Below, piece by piece: positions 15,057 to 27,425 of a DNA stretch of 64,000 nt. Below the pieces are notes generated by a model, which made no database searches, was not told the DNA's origin, and saw nothing but the letters and a program-made list of their open reading frames with translations. The stretch lies in NCBI RefSeq assembly GCF_030503435.1, contig NZ_JAUKPO010000025.1:1-64000 (forward strand). Direction: 5' to 3'. Position 1 is the first letter of the stretch; the number at the start of each line of letters is the position of its first letter. This DNA comes from Rhodocytophaga aerolata. Its GTDB lineage: Bacteria > Bacteroidota > Bacteroidia > Cytophagales > 172606-1. The position numbers and the translations under genes are program-made.

Positions 15057-18000
15057 TTATTTATATAACCAGATGCGCATCAGCGACAATAACTGATCTA
15101 TTTTTACCGGTTTGGTAATATAATCGGAAGCGCCTGCCTCTATACATTTCTGGCGGTCGCCTTTCATGGCTTTGGCAGTAACGGCAATAATAGGCAAGGT
15201 ACTGTTTTTATTTTCCCGCCGTATCTTCTGGGTGGTTTCGTAGCCATCCATCTCCGGCATCATAATATCCATCAGAACAATATCTATATTGCTGTTTTCA
15301 TTCAGAATCTGAATGGCTTCTTTTCCACTTTCTGCGGTAATAGCATTGATGTTATAGCGTTCAAAAGCGGTAGTGAGTGCAAACAGGTTACGTACATCAT
15401 CATCTACTACCAGAATATTTTTGCCTACCAGCACATCTTCTTTCAAGCGGATGCCCTCTATTAATTTCCGCTGTTGTGTAGGTAATGCTTTGTGATCCAG
15501 GTGCAGATGTTTTATGGTTTCCTCTAGTAATAAATCCAGCGACTTAACATCTTTTAAGATTATATTTTTGGCCAGCTGCCGTAATTGAGCTGTTTCTTTG
15601 TCCGAGAACTCTTTGGCTGAGTAAACAATTAATGGAATTTGCTGCTCCCGCTTTTCTACATTAATCTTCTTTATTAATTCAATACCAGACATATCGGGCA
15701 ACATATAATCAAGAATAATACAGTCGTAGCTCTTTTTCTGTAGCAATTGTATGGCTTTCTTGGCTGTTTCGGCAATGGTGATCTTGGTATTTACCCCTTG
15801 CAACATTTTTACAATGCCTGAAGAATCCATTTCATTATCTTCTATCACCAGTAGGTTTTTCACCTTCTTACTGGAAGCTTCTTCAATATCTTTGAAAAGA
15901 ATTTTCAGATCATCATTTTTCAACGGTTTTAAGAAGAAACCTTTTGCCCCACGTTTGTATGCCAGGCTTCTGTTTTCTTCACCTGAAATCAGGTAAACTG
16001 GGATATGCCGGTAGTTAAGATCACTTTTGAACAGATCCAGTACCTTCCAGCCACTTGTATCCGGCAGTTTGATATCCAGGGTAATGGCAACTGGGTTGTA
16101 TAAATTAACAAAGCCAAATACTTCACTGTGGTTTGTGGCAATTACGGCTTTCATTCCCCATTCATGCGCTTGTTCAATCATTATTCTGGCAAAACGGGTA
16201 TCATCTTCTACCACCAATAATACTTTGTCCTGTGCTTGAATATTTGTCCGGTCATCACCTAAATCGTTAATCATTTCATTCACCGCTTCCAGATGCTTAT
16301 TCTCTATGGAAGAGGCACCAGCACCGGGAACAGAAGTAAGTGATTTTACCAGAGACTTATCCATATCAGATGCTTTGTTGCCTGCTAGCAACTTATTAAT
16401 CATTTCCTTCTCGCCTATTGGAGCCCCTTCTAAAGGCAGGAATAAGGTAAAGGTGCTACCCTGGTTTACATGGCTTTCCAGTTCAATTGTTCCGCCCAGC
16501 AATTCTGCCAGACCCCGGCTAATAGATAACCCTAAACCGGTACCGCCATACTTACGGCTGGTAGAGCCTTCTGCTTGTTGGAAGGCCTCAAATATAATGT
16601 TCTGCTTATCTCTGGGAATACCAATACCTGTATCGGAAATGGCAAAGGCCACCACGTTTTTGGCATTCTCCAGACTGCTGTTCCGCATTTTCCAGTTCCG
16701 CTCGGCTTTATAAATTCTAAGCTTAACTTCCCCTTTTTCTGTGAATTTAAAGGCGTTAGAAAGCAGGTTTTTAAGAATCTGATTTAGCCGCTGCACGTCT
16801 GTCTGCAATACTTCGGGTACGTTATTGTCTATTACTACATTAAACCGTAAGTGCTTAGCTTCAGAAATTGGCTTAAAGGTAGTTTCTACAAATGAGCTAA
16901 CCTCTCTGAAACGAACCGGTAAAAATTCAGCGGTAATAAATCCGGATTCGATCTTAGAAAGATCCAGAATGTCATTAATCAATTGTATTAAGTCGTCGCC
17001 GCAGGAGTGAATGGTTTTAGCGAAGCGGACTTGTTTTTCAGAAAGGTTTCCTTCCGGATTTTCATATAACTGTTGTGCCAGAATGAGCAAACTATTCAGT
17101 GGTGTCCGCAATTCGTGCGACATATTGGCCAAGAACTCCGATTTGTACTTAGAAGTTATGGTCAGCTGTTCCGCTTTTTCTTCCAGTGAGCGGCGGGCTT
17201 CTTCTACCTCTTTGTTTTTGGCTTCTACTTCTTCTTTCTGTTTTACCAGCAGCAATGCTTTGTCTTGCAATTCTTCGTTTGTTCTCCGTAACTCATCGGC
17301 CAAGGACTGCGATTGTGTAAGCAGCTCTTCAGTACGGCTATTTGTCTGAATGGTATTCAGTACAATACCAATACTTTCTGTCAACTGGCTCAGGAAGTCA
17401 AGGTGAGTCTGGCTAAAGGATTCAAAAGAAGCAAGTTCTATTACGGCTTTTACTTCTGTTTCGAACAATACCGGCAATACAATTAAACTTAGTGGTTTGG
17501 CTTCACCCAATGCCGAACTGATTTTAATATATTCGCTTGGTACATTGGTTAGCAGAATTCTTTCTTTTTCAACGGCGCATTGCCCAACCAGACCTTCGCC
17601 AATAGCAAATTCTTTCGGCACATTTTTATCTTCTTTATAGGCATAGGCAGCAAATAATTTGAGTTTATTCTGCATATCCTCATTCTGCTGGAGAATATAG
17701 AAGGCACCATAGGGGGCAAATACTACCTGCGCCAATTCGGAAAGAATCCGGTTGGTTACCGTATTCAGGTCTTTCTGGCCCTGAAGCATCTGGGTGAATT
17801 TAGCCAGGTTAGATTTCAGCCAGTCTTGCTCCTGGTTCCGTAAGGTAGTTTCCTTCAGGTTGGCAATCATCTGGTTAATGGTATCTTTTAGGGCTTCCAA
17901 CTCTCCTTTGGCATCTACCCGGATAGTTCTGGTTAAGTCCCCTTTTGTTACCGCAGAAGCTACTTCAGAAATAGAACGTACCTGAGTAGTTAAGTTAGCT

Positions 18001-21000
18001 GCCAGCTGGTTTACGTTCTCTGTTAAGTCTTTCCAGGTTCCGGAAGCTCCGGGTACGCTGGCCTGACCACCTAACCGGCCTTCTACCCCTACTTCCCTGG
18101 CAACGGTAGTTACCTGATCCGCAAATACCGCTAGGGTATCAATCATCTCATTAATAGTATCTGTCAGCTGGGCTAACTCCCCTAAAGCGTTAATTGACAG
18201 CTTTTGCTTTAAATTACCTTTTGCTACAGACGTTACAACTTTGGATATACCCCGCACCTGGCCTGTTAAGTTAGAAGCCATCTGGTTTACTGAGTCGGTC
18301 AAGTCTTTCCACACACCTCCTACGCCTTTTACTGTCGCCTGCCCACCCAACTTTCCTTCCGTTCCTACCTCCCTAGCTACTCTGGTTACCTCCGAAGCAA
18401 AGGAGTTTAACTGATCCACCATCGTATTAATGGTGTTCTTCAAGTCCATCATTTCTCCCTTCACGTCGATAACCACCGTTTTGGACAAGTCACCGCTGGC
18501 TACCGCTTTGGTTACCTCAGCAATATTCCGTACTTGTGAGGTTAAGTTACCAGACATCTGGTTTACCGAGTCCGTTAAATCTTTCCAGGTACCAGCCACC
18601 CCAGGAACGAATGCCTGTCCACCCAGTTTTCCATCGGTTCCCACCTCTCTGGCCACACGCGTTACTTCAGAAGCAAAACCTCTCAACTGATCCACCATCG
18701 TGTTGATAGTTTCTTTCAACTGAAGAATTTCGCCCCGTACGTCTACGGTAATTTTTTTAGACAAGTCACCGTTAGCCACGGCAATAGAAACGTCAGCTAT
18801 ATTTCTGAGCTGGGAAGTTAAGTTACCAGCCATTTTATTTACCGAGTCGGTCAAGTCTTTCCATACACCCCCTACGCCTTTTACTGTCGCCTGCCCGCCT
18901 AATCTACCTTCGGAGCCTACCTCACTTGCCACCCTGGTTACCTCCGAAGCAAAGGAGTTTAATTGATCCACCATCGTGTTGATCGTGTTTTTCAATTCCA
19001 GCATCTCCCCTTTTACGTCCACGGTAATCTTCTTTGACAAATCACCCTTGGCTACGGCAGTCGTTACTTCTGCAATATTCCGCACCTGGTTTGTCAGGTT
19101 ATCGGCCATTTTGTTTACAGAGTCCGTTAAATCTTTCCAGGTACCGCCTACGCCAGGTACGTTAGCCTGTCCACCCAACTGCCCTTCTGAACCTACCTCT
19201 CTAGCTACCCGGGTTACCTCCGAACCGAAAGAGTTGAGCTGATCCACCATCGTGTTGATCGTGTTTTTCAACTCCAGCATCTCCCCTTTTACGTCTACCG
19301 CAATTTTCTTAGATAAGTCACCTTTGGCTACGGCAGTCGTTACATCCGCAATATTCCGCACCTGGTTCGTTAGGTTGGAAGCCATCTGGTTTACAGAATC
19401 CGTTAAGTCTTTCCAGGTACCGCCTACGCCAGGCACGTTGGCTTGCCCACCTAATTGCCCCTCTGAACCTACCTCTCTAGCCACCCTGGTTACCTCTGAA
19501 GAGAAAGAGTTCAACTGATCCACCATCGTGTTGATCGTGTTTTTCAACTCCAACAACTCTCCCTTGGCATCTACCGTGATTTTCTTAGACAAGTCTCCAG
19601 TTGCTACGGCCGTTGTTACCCCGGCAATATTCCGCACCTGGGCTGTTAAGTTTCCAGCCATCTGGTTTACAGAATCCGTTAGGTCTTTCCACACGCCACC
19701 CACGCCTTTTACGGTCGCCTGCCCACCTAATTTTCCTTCCGTACCTACTTCCAAGGCTACCCGGGTTACCTCGGAACCAAAAGAGTTGAGCTGATCCACC
19801 ATCGTGTTAATGGTGTTTTTCAACTCCAGCATCTCCCCTTTTACATCCACCGTAATTTTACGAGACAAGTCACCATTGGCTACGGCTGTGGTTACCCCGG
19901 CAATATTCCGCACCTGGTTAGTCAGGTTTCCGGCCATCTGGTTTACTGAATCCGTTAAGTCTTTCCACACGCCACCTACCCCTTTTACTTGTGCTTGCCC
20001 TCCTAGTTTTCCTTCCGTACCTACCTCTAATGCTACCCGGGTTACCTCTGAGGAGAAGGAGTTGAGCTGATCCACCATCGTGTTAATTACGTTCTTGATC
20101 TCCAGGATTTCCCCTTTTACATCCACCGTAATTTTTTGTGTTAAGTCACCACTGGCAATTGCGGTTGCCACCTTAGATACGTCACGCAGCTGTACGGTTA
20201 AGTTACCAGCCAGCTGGTTTACGTTATCTGTTAAATCTTTCCATACACCAGCCACCCCTTTTACTTCTGCTTGTCCACCTAGCTTTCCTTCCGAACCTAC
20301 CTCCCTGGCCACACGCGTTACTTCTGAAGAGAAAGAGTTGAGCTGATCCACCATTGTATTAATTGTGTTCTTCAACTCCAACAACTCACCCTTGGCATCT
20401 ACCGTTATTTTCTTAGACAAATCCCCTCTTGCCACGGCCGTTGTTACCCCGGCAATATTCCGCACCTGGGCTGTTAAGTTTCCAGCCATCTGGTTTACTG
20501 AATCCGTTAGGTCTTTCCACACGCCACCCACGCCCCTTACTGTTGCTTGTCCACCTAGTTTTCCTTCGGTTCCTACCTCTAGCGCCACCCGGGTTACCTC
20601 TGAGGAGAAGGAGTTGAGCTGATCCACCATCGTGTTGATCGTGTTCTTTACTTCCTGTAATTCACCCCGGGCTTCTACGGTAATCTTTTTGGAAAGGTCT
20701 CCCTTAGCAATAGCAGTCGTTACATCCGCAATATTCCGTACCTGGTTGGTCAGGTTTCCGGCCATCTGGTTTACGGAGTCCGTTAAGTCTTTCCACACGC
20801 CACCTACCCCTTTTACGGTTGCCTGCCCACCTAATTTTCCTTCGGAACCTACTTCTCTGGCTACCCTGGTTACTTCCATGGAAAATAGGTTCAACTGCTT
20901 TACCATGTCGTTTACCTCCTGGCCAATGCGGCGGAACTCTCCTTGCAGTACATTTCCCTCTATCTCCATAGGCATTTCCTGCGAAAGATTACCTTTTGCC

Positions 21001-21359
21001 ACCGAACTGATTACATGGGCTATTTCTATTGTTGGATGTACCAGATCAGACACCAAGGTATTAATAGTATCTATGCCTGTGCTCCAGGAGCCGCGGGCAT
21101 CGCTAAGCTCCAGCCGTTGGGTAAGTTTCCCTTGTTTACCAATGGTATTGCCTGCTTTAGTGAACTCATTCATCATGCGTTCATTCAGCTCTATAATATC
21201 ATTAAGCGTATCACAGATTTTACCACTAATCCCATATTGGTCTATAGGCATGCGAACGGAAAAATTTCCATTCTTCACTTCCATTAAGACTCTTAATAGT
21301 TCTTTATTGTCCAGAAAGTTAGAATCTTCCTGCACTCCATTACTTATATGTGTTTCCAT
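15057..21359 (-). CDS. Giant soluble hybrid histidine kinase with eleven HAMP-type repeats
   Basis: A 2100-residue protein without signal peptide or membrane segment. Order: a diverged HAMP region (about 15-162); eleven consecutive 92-residue HAMP-type repeats (163-1174); a GAF domain (about 1198-1336); a coiled coil (about 1340-1405); a histidine kinase core ([11 protein letters not shown] with H1415, [25 protein letters not shown]); and three receiver domains with phosphoacceptors near D1762, D1884 and D2031. The first receiver has LDIK in place of the usual D-x-x-M/L-P start but keeps the aspartate. The 92-residue poly-HAMP plan is the one known from fungal group III (Nik1-type) osmosensing kinases. 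It heads a minus-strand signalling cluster. Stimulus unknown; cytoplasmic sensing is inferred. Confidence 0.95.
17838..20873 (-). repeat. Eleven in-frame 276-bp tandem repeats encoding HAMP units
   Basis: The array is exactly 11 x 276 bp (3036 bp) with no indels, coding residues 163-1174 of the hybrid kinase. Each unit starts VTRVA.EVG (VTTVA in the last), contains LGGQA, WKDLT, N.NQ/KMA.NLT, GDL and INTMVDQL, and ends before the next VTR. Units differ by scattered substitutions; the first nine are closest, and the last two are more diverged. The near-identity makes the array a candidate for copy-number change by recombination. Confidence 0.95.
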
Positions 21360-26023: not shown

Positions 26024-26064
26024 TTGTGCACACTTATCCACATCTTATCCAGCAGTTATCCACA
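26024..26064 (+). promoter_or_regulatory. Cluster of DnaA boxes upstream of nrdB
   Basis: Three direct repeats spaced exactly 11 bp apart: TTATCCACA (26034-26042), TTATCCAGC (26045-26053) and TTATCCACA (26056-26064). A related TTGTGCACA lies at 26024-26032. The first and third match the DnaA box consensus TTATNCACA. One helical turn of spacing places the boxes on one face, just upstream of the nrdB promoter. DnaA is known to regulate nrdAB in E. coli through promoter-proximal boxes. A replication origin is the main alternative. Confidence 0.75.
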
Positions 26065-26097
26065 TTAATTTGTTGAAAACAATTCTAATGTGTATCC

Positions 26098-26105
26098 TAT
26101 TTTTG
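26098..26105 (+). promoter_or_regulatory. nrdB promoter -7 element
   Basis: TATTTTTG is a perfect TAnnTTTG box. Upstream, TTTG (26069-26072) is 25 nt away and GTTG (26072-26075) 22 nt away, a little longer than ideal. The DnaA boxes end five bases before this -33 region. The leader to the nrdB ATG would be about 90 nt. Confidence 0.6.
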
Positions 26106-27181: not shown

Positions 27182-27203
27182 AAGCTTTTTGTAAACTGGT
27201 TGT

Positions 27204-27238
27204 AAAAGCCCTGCTTTACTTTCTATAGTAGGGCTTTT
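27204..27238 (+). terminator. Hairpin after nrdB
   Basis: AAAAGCCCTGCT (27204-27215) pairs with AGTAGGGCTTTT (27227-27238) with one G-U pair and an 11-nt loop. Only a short T-run follows. It would separate or attenuate nrdB and nrdA. Confidence 0.75.
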
Positions 27239-27425
27239 AATTTTCCCTTATCATTCCCTAATCACTTTCCTTATAAAAGTATATTTCTTTTTTTTGTATC
27301 CATATATTAAAATTTAACAAAAAAATTTAGTTACTTTCATGACACATTCGTTTTAAGTTACGTAATACACTTAAAATGCATGGATCAATAGATTTTATTA
27401 TTCATTCACCCATAACCTTAAATCT

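Follow-up and report, generated by a model that had tools for sequence, protein, structure and literature searches.

DnaA control of the ribonucleotide reductase (RNR) operon nrdAB has been shown in Escherichia coli and proposed in Caulobacter, and E. coli DnaA is described as an activator or a repressor of nrdAB according to its level and nucleotide (PMC8203912, partial text). DnaA of E. coli prefers pairs of boxes with gaps of 2–3 bp: the nrdA promoter carries TTATCCACA, a 3-bp gap and TTATGCACT, and at purH an extra base between the boxes lowered binding (PMC11317965, partial text). As to Bacteroidota, our literature search, thin on subscription papers, found no report of DnaA control of RNR, and a term search of the available part of PMC12176259 returned no mention of Bacteroid.

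Here we describe an array of DnaA boxes upstream of nrdB in the window, the whole 64-kb stretch of Rhodocytophaga aerolata DNA that was analysed. Like the E. coli nrdAB promoter, as far as the partial texts describe it, the locus has DnaA boxes set close together ahead of an RNR gene. It differs in having three boxes with 2-bp gaps and a TAnnTTTG promoter, in having nrdB ahead of nrdA and a hairpin separating the two, and in the lack of NrdR, which E. coli has. Gaps of 2–3 bp also characterise the double boxes in the DnaA regulon of E. coli (nrdA, polA, purH, DARS and oriC; PMC11317965, partial text), whereas here partners lie at two and three helical turns as well. We consider the array likely to be a DnaA-binding cis-element of the nrdB promoter, which would make this a DnaA-controlled RNR promoter.

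An 11-bp-phased box array precedes nrdB

An earlier note on this DNA had pointed to three boxes spaced by 11 bp, two of them perfect, and these are borne out at 26034, 26045 and 26056 (Table 1). The three follow an exact 11-bp step on one strand, leaving 2-bp gaps across 26034–26064; a perfect box scores 16.3 bits, against 5.1 bits for the middle one. The fourth related box that the note placed at 26024 is present as TTGTGCACA, but it is marginal. The note also had the boxes end just ahead of a −33/−7 region, and here the −7 part stood: TATTTTTG, which we take to be a −7 element of the TAnnTTTG type, is good, and the top-ranked non-box 9-mer of the enrichment described below, CAAATATAG/CTATATTTG, supports it. 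The −33 part fared less well, because the candidate TTTG lies 25 bases from the −7 element against a Bacteroidota consensus of about 19–20. The spacing that the note called unusually regular is not unusual for DnaA, given the 2–3 bp gaps preferred in E. coli (PMC11317965, partial text).

Table 1 Features of the nrdB locus and related loci (window positions unless a contig or locus is named)
Feature	Position	Strand	Details
Box-like site TTGTGCACA, marginal	26024–26032	+	7.3 bits, below the 9.4-bit threshold
DnaA box 1, perfect TTATCCACA	26034–26042	+	Starts 64 bp before −7 element
DnaA box 2, weak TTATCCAGC	26045–26053	+	5.1 bits; starts 53 bp before −7 element
DnaA box 3, perfect TTATCCACA	26056–26064	+	Starts 42 bp before −7 element
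Candidate −33 element TTTG, poor	26069–26072	+	Read by eye; 25 bases to −7 element
Presumed −7 element TATTTTTG, TAnnTTTG type, nrdB promoter	26098–26105	+	
nrdB, class I RNR small subunit, 326 aa	26201–27181	+	PF00268, E 9.7e-118
13-bp hairpin, then AAUUUU	27203–27239	+	−19.4 kcal/mol; z −4.8 versus shuffles
nrdA, large subunit with ATP-cone, 797 aa	27426–29819	+	PF02867, PF00317, PF03477
Box cluster at probable oriC, G000	C136:365487–365835		L216 3988–4336
Same cluster in other family genomes	L215, L217–L220, L180		
Loci with a box overlapping TAnnTTTG	L265, L267, L268, L290 (distal TAnnTTTG), L292, L293, L295–L297, L299–L301		

Scores come from a matrix of 86 boxes taken from oriC clusters; it is centred on TTATCCACA by construction and cannot independently show which sequence DnaA prefers, because its sites were preselected at no more than one mismatch from TTATCCACA. 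Exact TTATCCACA occurs twice in the 64-kb window, both times in the nrdB array, and boxes with at most one mismatch are no commoner across the window as a whole than chance predicts (18 versus 18.5 expected). Throughout the 9.07-Mb genome, TTATCCA-N4-TTATCCA gave two overlapping matches, both at the nrdB array, with one match for the reversed-pattern control. Paired exact boxes on the same strand and no more than 30 bp apart were found at three places in this genome (control 0), namely the nrdB array, a site on contig C22 beside a nucleotidyltransferase gene and a site on C115 inside a small ORF that has no Pfam match.

The gap before nrdA holds no box even when one mismatch is allowed, and the hairpin that follows nrdB is a possible terminator or attenuator. 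Taken together, the hairpin and the box-free gap seem to point to the small subunit as the part of the RNR under control.

Elsewhere in the window, the minus strand at 15057–21359 holds a 2100-aa ORF in which a unit of ~92 aa is repeated many times in near-identical form, followed by sensor-kinase-like and receiver-like parts. This ORF contains the window's strongest negative GC skew.

The boxes keep their register to the promoter within the family

We found nrdB in seven of eight family genomes, with boxes upstream of it in all seven. In each, a plus-strand box starts 52–53 bp before TAnnTTTG, counting from the first base of that element to the box start. Plus-strand starts are 64, 53 and 42 both in the window and in G001, where the boxes read TTATGCACA, TTATCCACA and TTGTCAACA, the third being weak (6.7 bits); they are 74, 63 and 53 in G002, 73 and 52 in G006, and 53 in G004. 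G003 and G005, near-duplicates of each other, both have starts at 53 and 42, measured to whichever of three TAnnTTTG candidates lies nearest the boxes. Same-strand gaps of 2 bp recur in G001, G002, G003 and G005, and six of the seven genomes, all except the window, also have minus-strand boxes, with starts at 39 or 27. The −7 element itself lies anywhere from 86 to 266 bp from the start codon, with the box-to-−7 register fixed.

Gene order around the promoter varies. The upstream neighbours are rplU (by Pfam) and rpmA (by likeness) in the window, and the same pair by likeness in G004; they differ in G001, G002 and G003, where the boxes are kept, which ties the boxes to nrdB rather than to the gene beside it. 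The comparison of nrdB upstream regions proposed in the earlier note found boxes in every family genome with nrdB. Its suggestion that the E. coli logic arose in a Bacteroidota genome gains support from this conservation, from the helical phasing, from the box shared with the probable oriC and from the location of that oriC elsewhere (both described below), but not as an invention of one genome, as boxes precede nrdB in several Bacteroidota genera and families.

Genome-wide pattern searches gave a measure of specificity. TTATSCA-N4-TTATCCA had 12 matches across the eight family genomes, of which five were at nrdB, one at the probable oriC of G007 and six elsewhere, the last confined to two other loci of G003 and G005. 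TTATCCACA followed by TAnnTTTG at 42–65 bp was moderately specific, with 16 matches in the eight genomes against nine for the reversed control: seven at nrdB (five genomes), one in the oriC cluster of G006, two between plasmid-type Rep genes, two ahead of a patatin-like gene (one each in G003 and G005), and four not assigned.

Several other box-bearing loci have features of their own. The C22 locus (L164 1501–1606, G000:C22) and its counterparts L182–L185 hold three strong boxes, two of them 21 bp apart and one inverted about 100 bp on; they precede a nucleotidyltransferase gene in five of five genomes examined, and could possibly be a titration or DARS-like site, or a promoter. Two sister genomes (L321 and L324, about 1480–1560; G005:C20 and G003:C44) carry a near-copy of the nrdB box promoter some 350 bp ahead of a gene for a patatin-like phospholipase, as if the nrdB promoter had been duplicated and captured. 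Boxes also occur between RepA_C-type and Rep3-type plasmid initiator genes (L320, G000:C131, by Pfam; L323, G000:C170, by likeness) and inside the small ORF without a Pfam match (L165, G000:C115); these three loci are probably plasmid origins. An 11-bp-phased TTATCCA triple precedes a glutamine-amidotransferase-like gene in two sister genomes (L171 and L172, 1501–1531; G005:C1 and G003:C4).

DnaA boxes are enriched and helically phased before nrdB in wider relatives

Our first set of 110 nrdB loci (30 + 80) came to 96 after removal of two without a recognised start (L079 and L111) and 12 near-duplicates. Within the last 330 bp before nrdB, 9-mers present in at least four loci were ranked by z against 60 shuffles; shuffles and the flanks of the same nrdB loci served as the background. 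TTATCCACA was the top 9-mer, exact in 20 of the 96 loci versus 0.37 expected. Its 32 exact copies compare with a shuffle mean of 0.27 (maximum 2 in 60), an excess of about 120-fold, and allowing one mismatch gave 97 copies in 49 loci versus 8.6 in shuffles. Exact boxes were concentrated near the gene, with 35 no more than 500 bp upstream of the start codon (48 kb in all) versus eight in the other listed bins between −2500 and +3500 (about 453 kb). For comparison, 400 kb sampled from G001 contained five exact boxes, including one at nrdB. The link between DnaA boxes and nrdB is not universal, because no site reaches the matrix threshold in 40 of the 96 loci; some nrdB loci carry TTTTCCACA or TTATTCACA variants.

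A hold-out set of 68 loci, reduced to 57 by dropping one without a recognised start (L298) and ten that were duplicates or already seen, showed the same tendency; of further matches lacking a locus, 40 were fetched and the others left out. Exact TTATCCACA appeared in seven copies at five loci versus 0.2, and boxes with at most one mismatch in 32 copies at 26 loci versus 4.8, in loci that are related by descent and not independent (family f26 accounts for four of the seven exact copies and for at least 14 of the 26 loci).

Phasing was evident when both sets were pooled. Among the 153 loci, same-strand partners of a strong site peaked at 10–12 bp (6, 4 and 7 loci), at 20–22 bp (4, 10 and 4) and at 31–33 bp (8, 2 and 2; six of the eight loci with a 31-bp partner are from Hymenobacter), with smaller peaks at 44–45 and 56–57 bp. 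Spacings in between were found in zero to two loci, and shuffles averaged 0.07 per spacing. A period of 11–11.5 bp fitted best among seven tried.

In the first set, the site centre fell 36–62 bp upstream of TAnnTTTG, a window chosen post hoc from these same data, in 27 of the 43 loci having both elements (random 6.9, maximum 14 in 2,000 runs). The hold-out showed this register in only 3 of 19 informative loci versus 2.0 at random, so the upstream position is not a general rule. Within the first set, particular groups keep registers of their own: plus-strand 49 or 50 in nine loci (four Chitinophaga), minus-strand 48 in five loci (all Pontibacter) and minus-strand 59 in four loci (three Mucilaginibacter). 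The hold-out instead had a box overlapping TAnnTTTG in 12 of 19 loci versus 1.0 at random, all from family f26 and 11 from one genus (Table 1). In most of these the box has the sequence TGTGRATAA and extends into the −7 element; this may be a repressor-like arrangement for DnaA or simply conserved promoter sequence.

The same box clusters at the probable origin of replication

All seven family genomes examined retain a cluster of 10–14 boxes (no more than one mismatch) in mixed orientation within 0.33–0.54 kb, located 3′ of one conserved gene (Ig-like by look) and not adjoining dnaA. Its distance from the matched stretch is about 0.5 kb or less in G000, G001, G002 and G006, 1.2 kb in G007 and about 4.4 kb in G003 and G005. 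We regard this cluster as the probable oriC of the family. It resembles the nrdB array in its 9-mer and in being kept in place, and is unlike it in box number and orientation and in lying about 415 kb off in G001 (cluster near 3.670 Mb, nrdB at 3.256 Mb).

GC skew was a poorer guide. In 60 stretches sampled from G001 it was weak, turning from mostly negative to mostly positive over about 2.4–3.4 Mb, and too noisy to place an origin alone. The cumulative minimum, near 3.32 Mb in the pieces sampled from 3.08 to 3.77 Mb, lies closer to nrdB (about 60 kb) than to the cluster (about 350 kb). The oriC case therefore rests on the box cluster and not on the skew. The skew check by which the earlier note would have excluded an origin at nrdB gave a divided answer, since the denser cluster lies elsewhere but the noisy minimum is nearer nrdB.

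Two other candidate markers were rejected. The C22 locus with its two tandem boxes has its G001 homologue at 4.25 Mb, and the denser 3.670-Mb cluster fits oriC better. dnaA, at 0.883 Mb in G001, was discarded as an origin marker; 10 of 30 dnaA loci were scanned for boxes, and the 4.4-kb loci of the organism's own genome and of G001 hold one and four boxes (no more than one mismatch) and no cluster. The own genome encodes dnaA, with a GRDHST motif in the last part of the protein that we take to be meaningful for DnaA; a DnaA signature pattern had no match, and the motif was read from the protein ends. In two genomes of genus g2, dnaA is in broken frames (G002:C18 57742–59129 and G004:C130 4666–6042), through assembly error or in reality.

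NrdR appears to be missing

According to one review, nrdR is encoded by every known eubacterium apart from Rickettsia, Helicobacter and Desulfovibrio (PMC4009431, partial text). NrdR (TIGR00244) was found in 0 of 59 genomes of relatives, the own genome included, and in 0 of 296 phylum genomes over the cut-off, drawn from a larger group and partly overlapping the 59. A positive control matched 9 of 14 known genomes in both scans, with E. coli among the matches in the scan of the 59. Seven weak matches of 20–23 bits in the 296 genomes lie in frames longer than 800 aa, and we take them for ATP-cones of RNR large subunits because six of the seven adjoin an NrdB-like match. Only 97 of the 296 genomes had a match to this NrdB, which limits the argument to the part of the phylum with this RNR. 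As sampled, NrdR thus appears to be missing from Bacteroidota, contrary to the exceptions listed in the available part of the review (PMC4009431). NrdR-box control is like the nrdB array in that its sites, too, come in pairs spaced by whole helical turns upstream of nrd genes (PMC4009431, partial text); the consensus is unrelated, and the regulator gave no match over the cut-off in either genome set.

Probable DnaA control and the alternatives

The cis-evidence for DnaA control of nrdB is strong as judged from sequence: consensus boxes lie near an nrd promoter, with same-strand gaps of 2 bp, inside the 2–3 bp range that DnaA can use, and conservation that does not depend on the neighbouring gene. 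A DnaA titration or nucleotide-exchange site of the datA or DARS type, located at nrdB and not regulating it, is an unlikely alternative reading of the array. Such loci look like clusters of strong boxes away from oriC, and the family has another conserved three-box locus; yet the family's boxes hold a fixed register to a −7 element whose distance from the start codon ranges from 86 to 266 bp, and boxes recur before nrdB in other families. That the array is itself a replication origin or secondary origin is still less probable, despite its perfect boxes and the nearby G001 skew minimum. It has three boxes, whereas the denser cluster stands near the same gene in seven of seven family genomes and disfavours an origin at nrdB, and the skew is weak and noisy.

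Sequence alone cannot name the bound protein, and the variant boxes at some loci would suit another transcription factor with a TTATCCACA-like site regulating nrdB. We think this improbable, as the exact consensus DnaA 9-mer ranks first in the enrichment and is clustered at the probable oriC, and a gap of 2 bp agrees with the spacing preferred by E. coli DnaA (PMC11317965, partial text). Chance, or inherited promoter sequence without function, is hardly credible: single boxes with one mismatch are common and the loci are related by descent, but against it stand the large excess of exact boxes over shuffles, their near-absence from flanks and their retention between diverged intergenic sequences.

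We therefore favour, among these readings, DnaA acting at the nrdB promoter. Binding of DnaA to the boxes is very likely, and regulation of nrdB by DnaA likely; net activation is only slightly favoured. DnaA would bind cooperatively, in head-to-tail order along a single helical face; the outer pair of perfect boxes would anchor it and the weak middle box would be bridged. At the promoter downstream of the array, with its good −7 and poor −33 elements, DnaA at low to moderate levels would most likely recruit RNA polymerase. More ATP-DnaA may spread to weaker downstream sites and cause repression, as described for E. coli nrdAB (PMC8203912, partial text). Supply of the RNR small subunit would in this way be coupled to the replication initiator in bacteria without NrdR.

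Significance

A DnaA-controlled RNR promoter is of a kind known from E. coli, and its predicted occurrence in a phylum new to it is convincing. A broader proposal, which we hold with evenly balanced confidence, is that Bacteroidota with this RNR type lack NrdR and tie RNR to the initiator through helically phased DnaA boxes, in a register that is fixed within a lineage and varies from one lineage to another. In Cytophagales and some further groups the boxes would lie upstream, in an activator-like position, and in one family belonging to the same class they would overlap the −7 element, in a repressor-like one. The conserved, lineage-specific registers in natural promoters would make the poorly understood activation of transcription by DnaA testable. 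If DnaA control of RNR operates throughout Bacteroidota, the dNTP supply would be widely coupled to the initiator, which offers one answer to how RNR is controlled in bacteria without NrdR.
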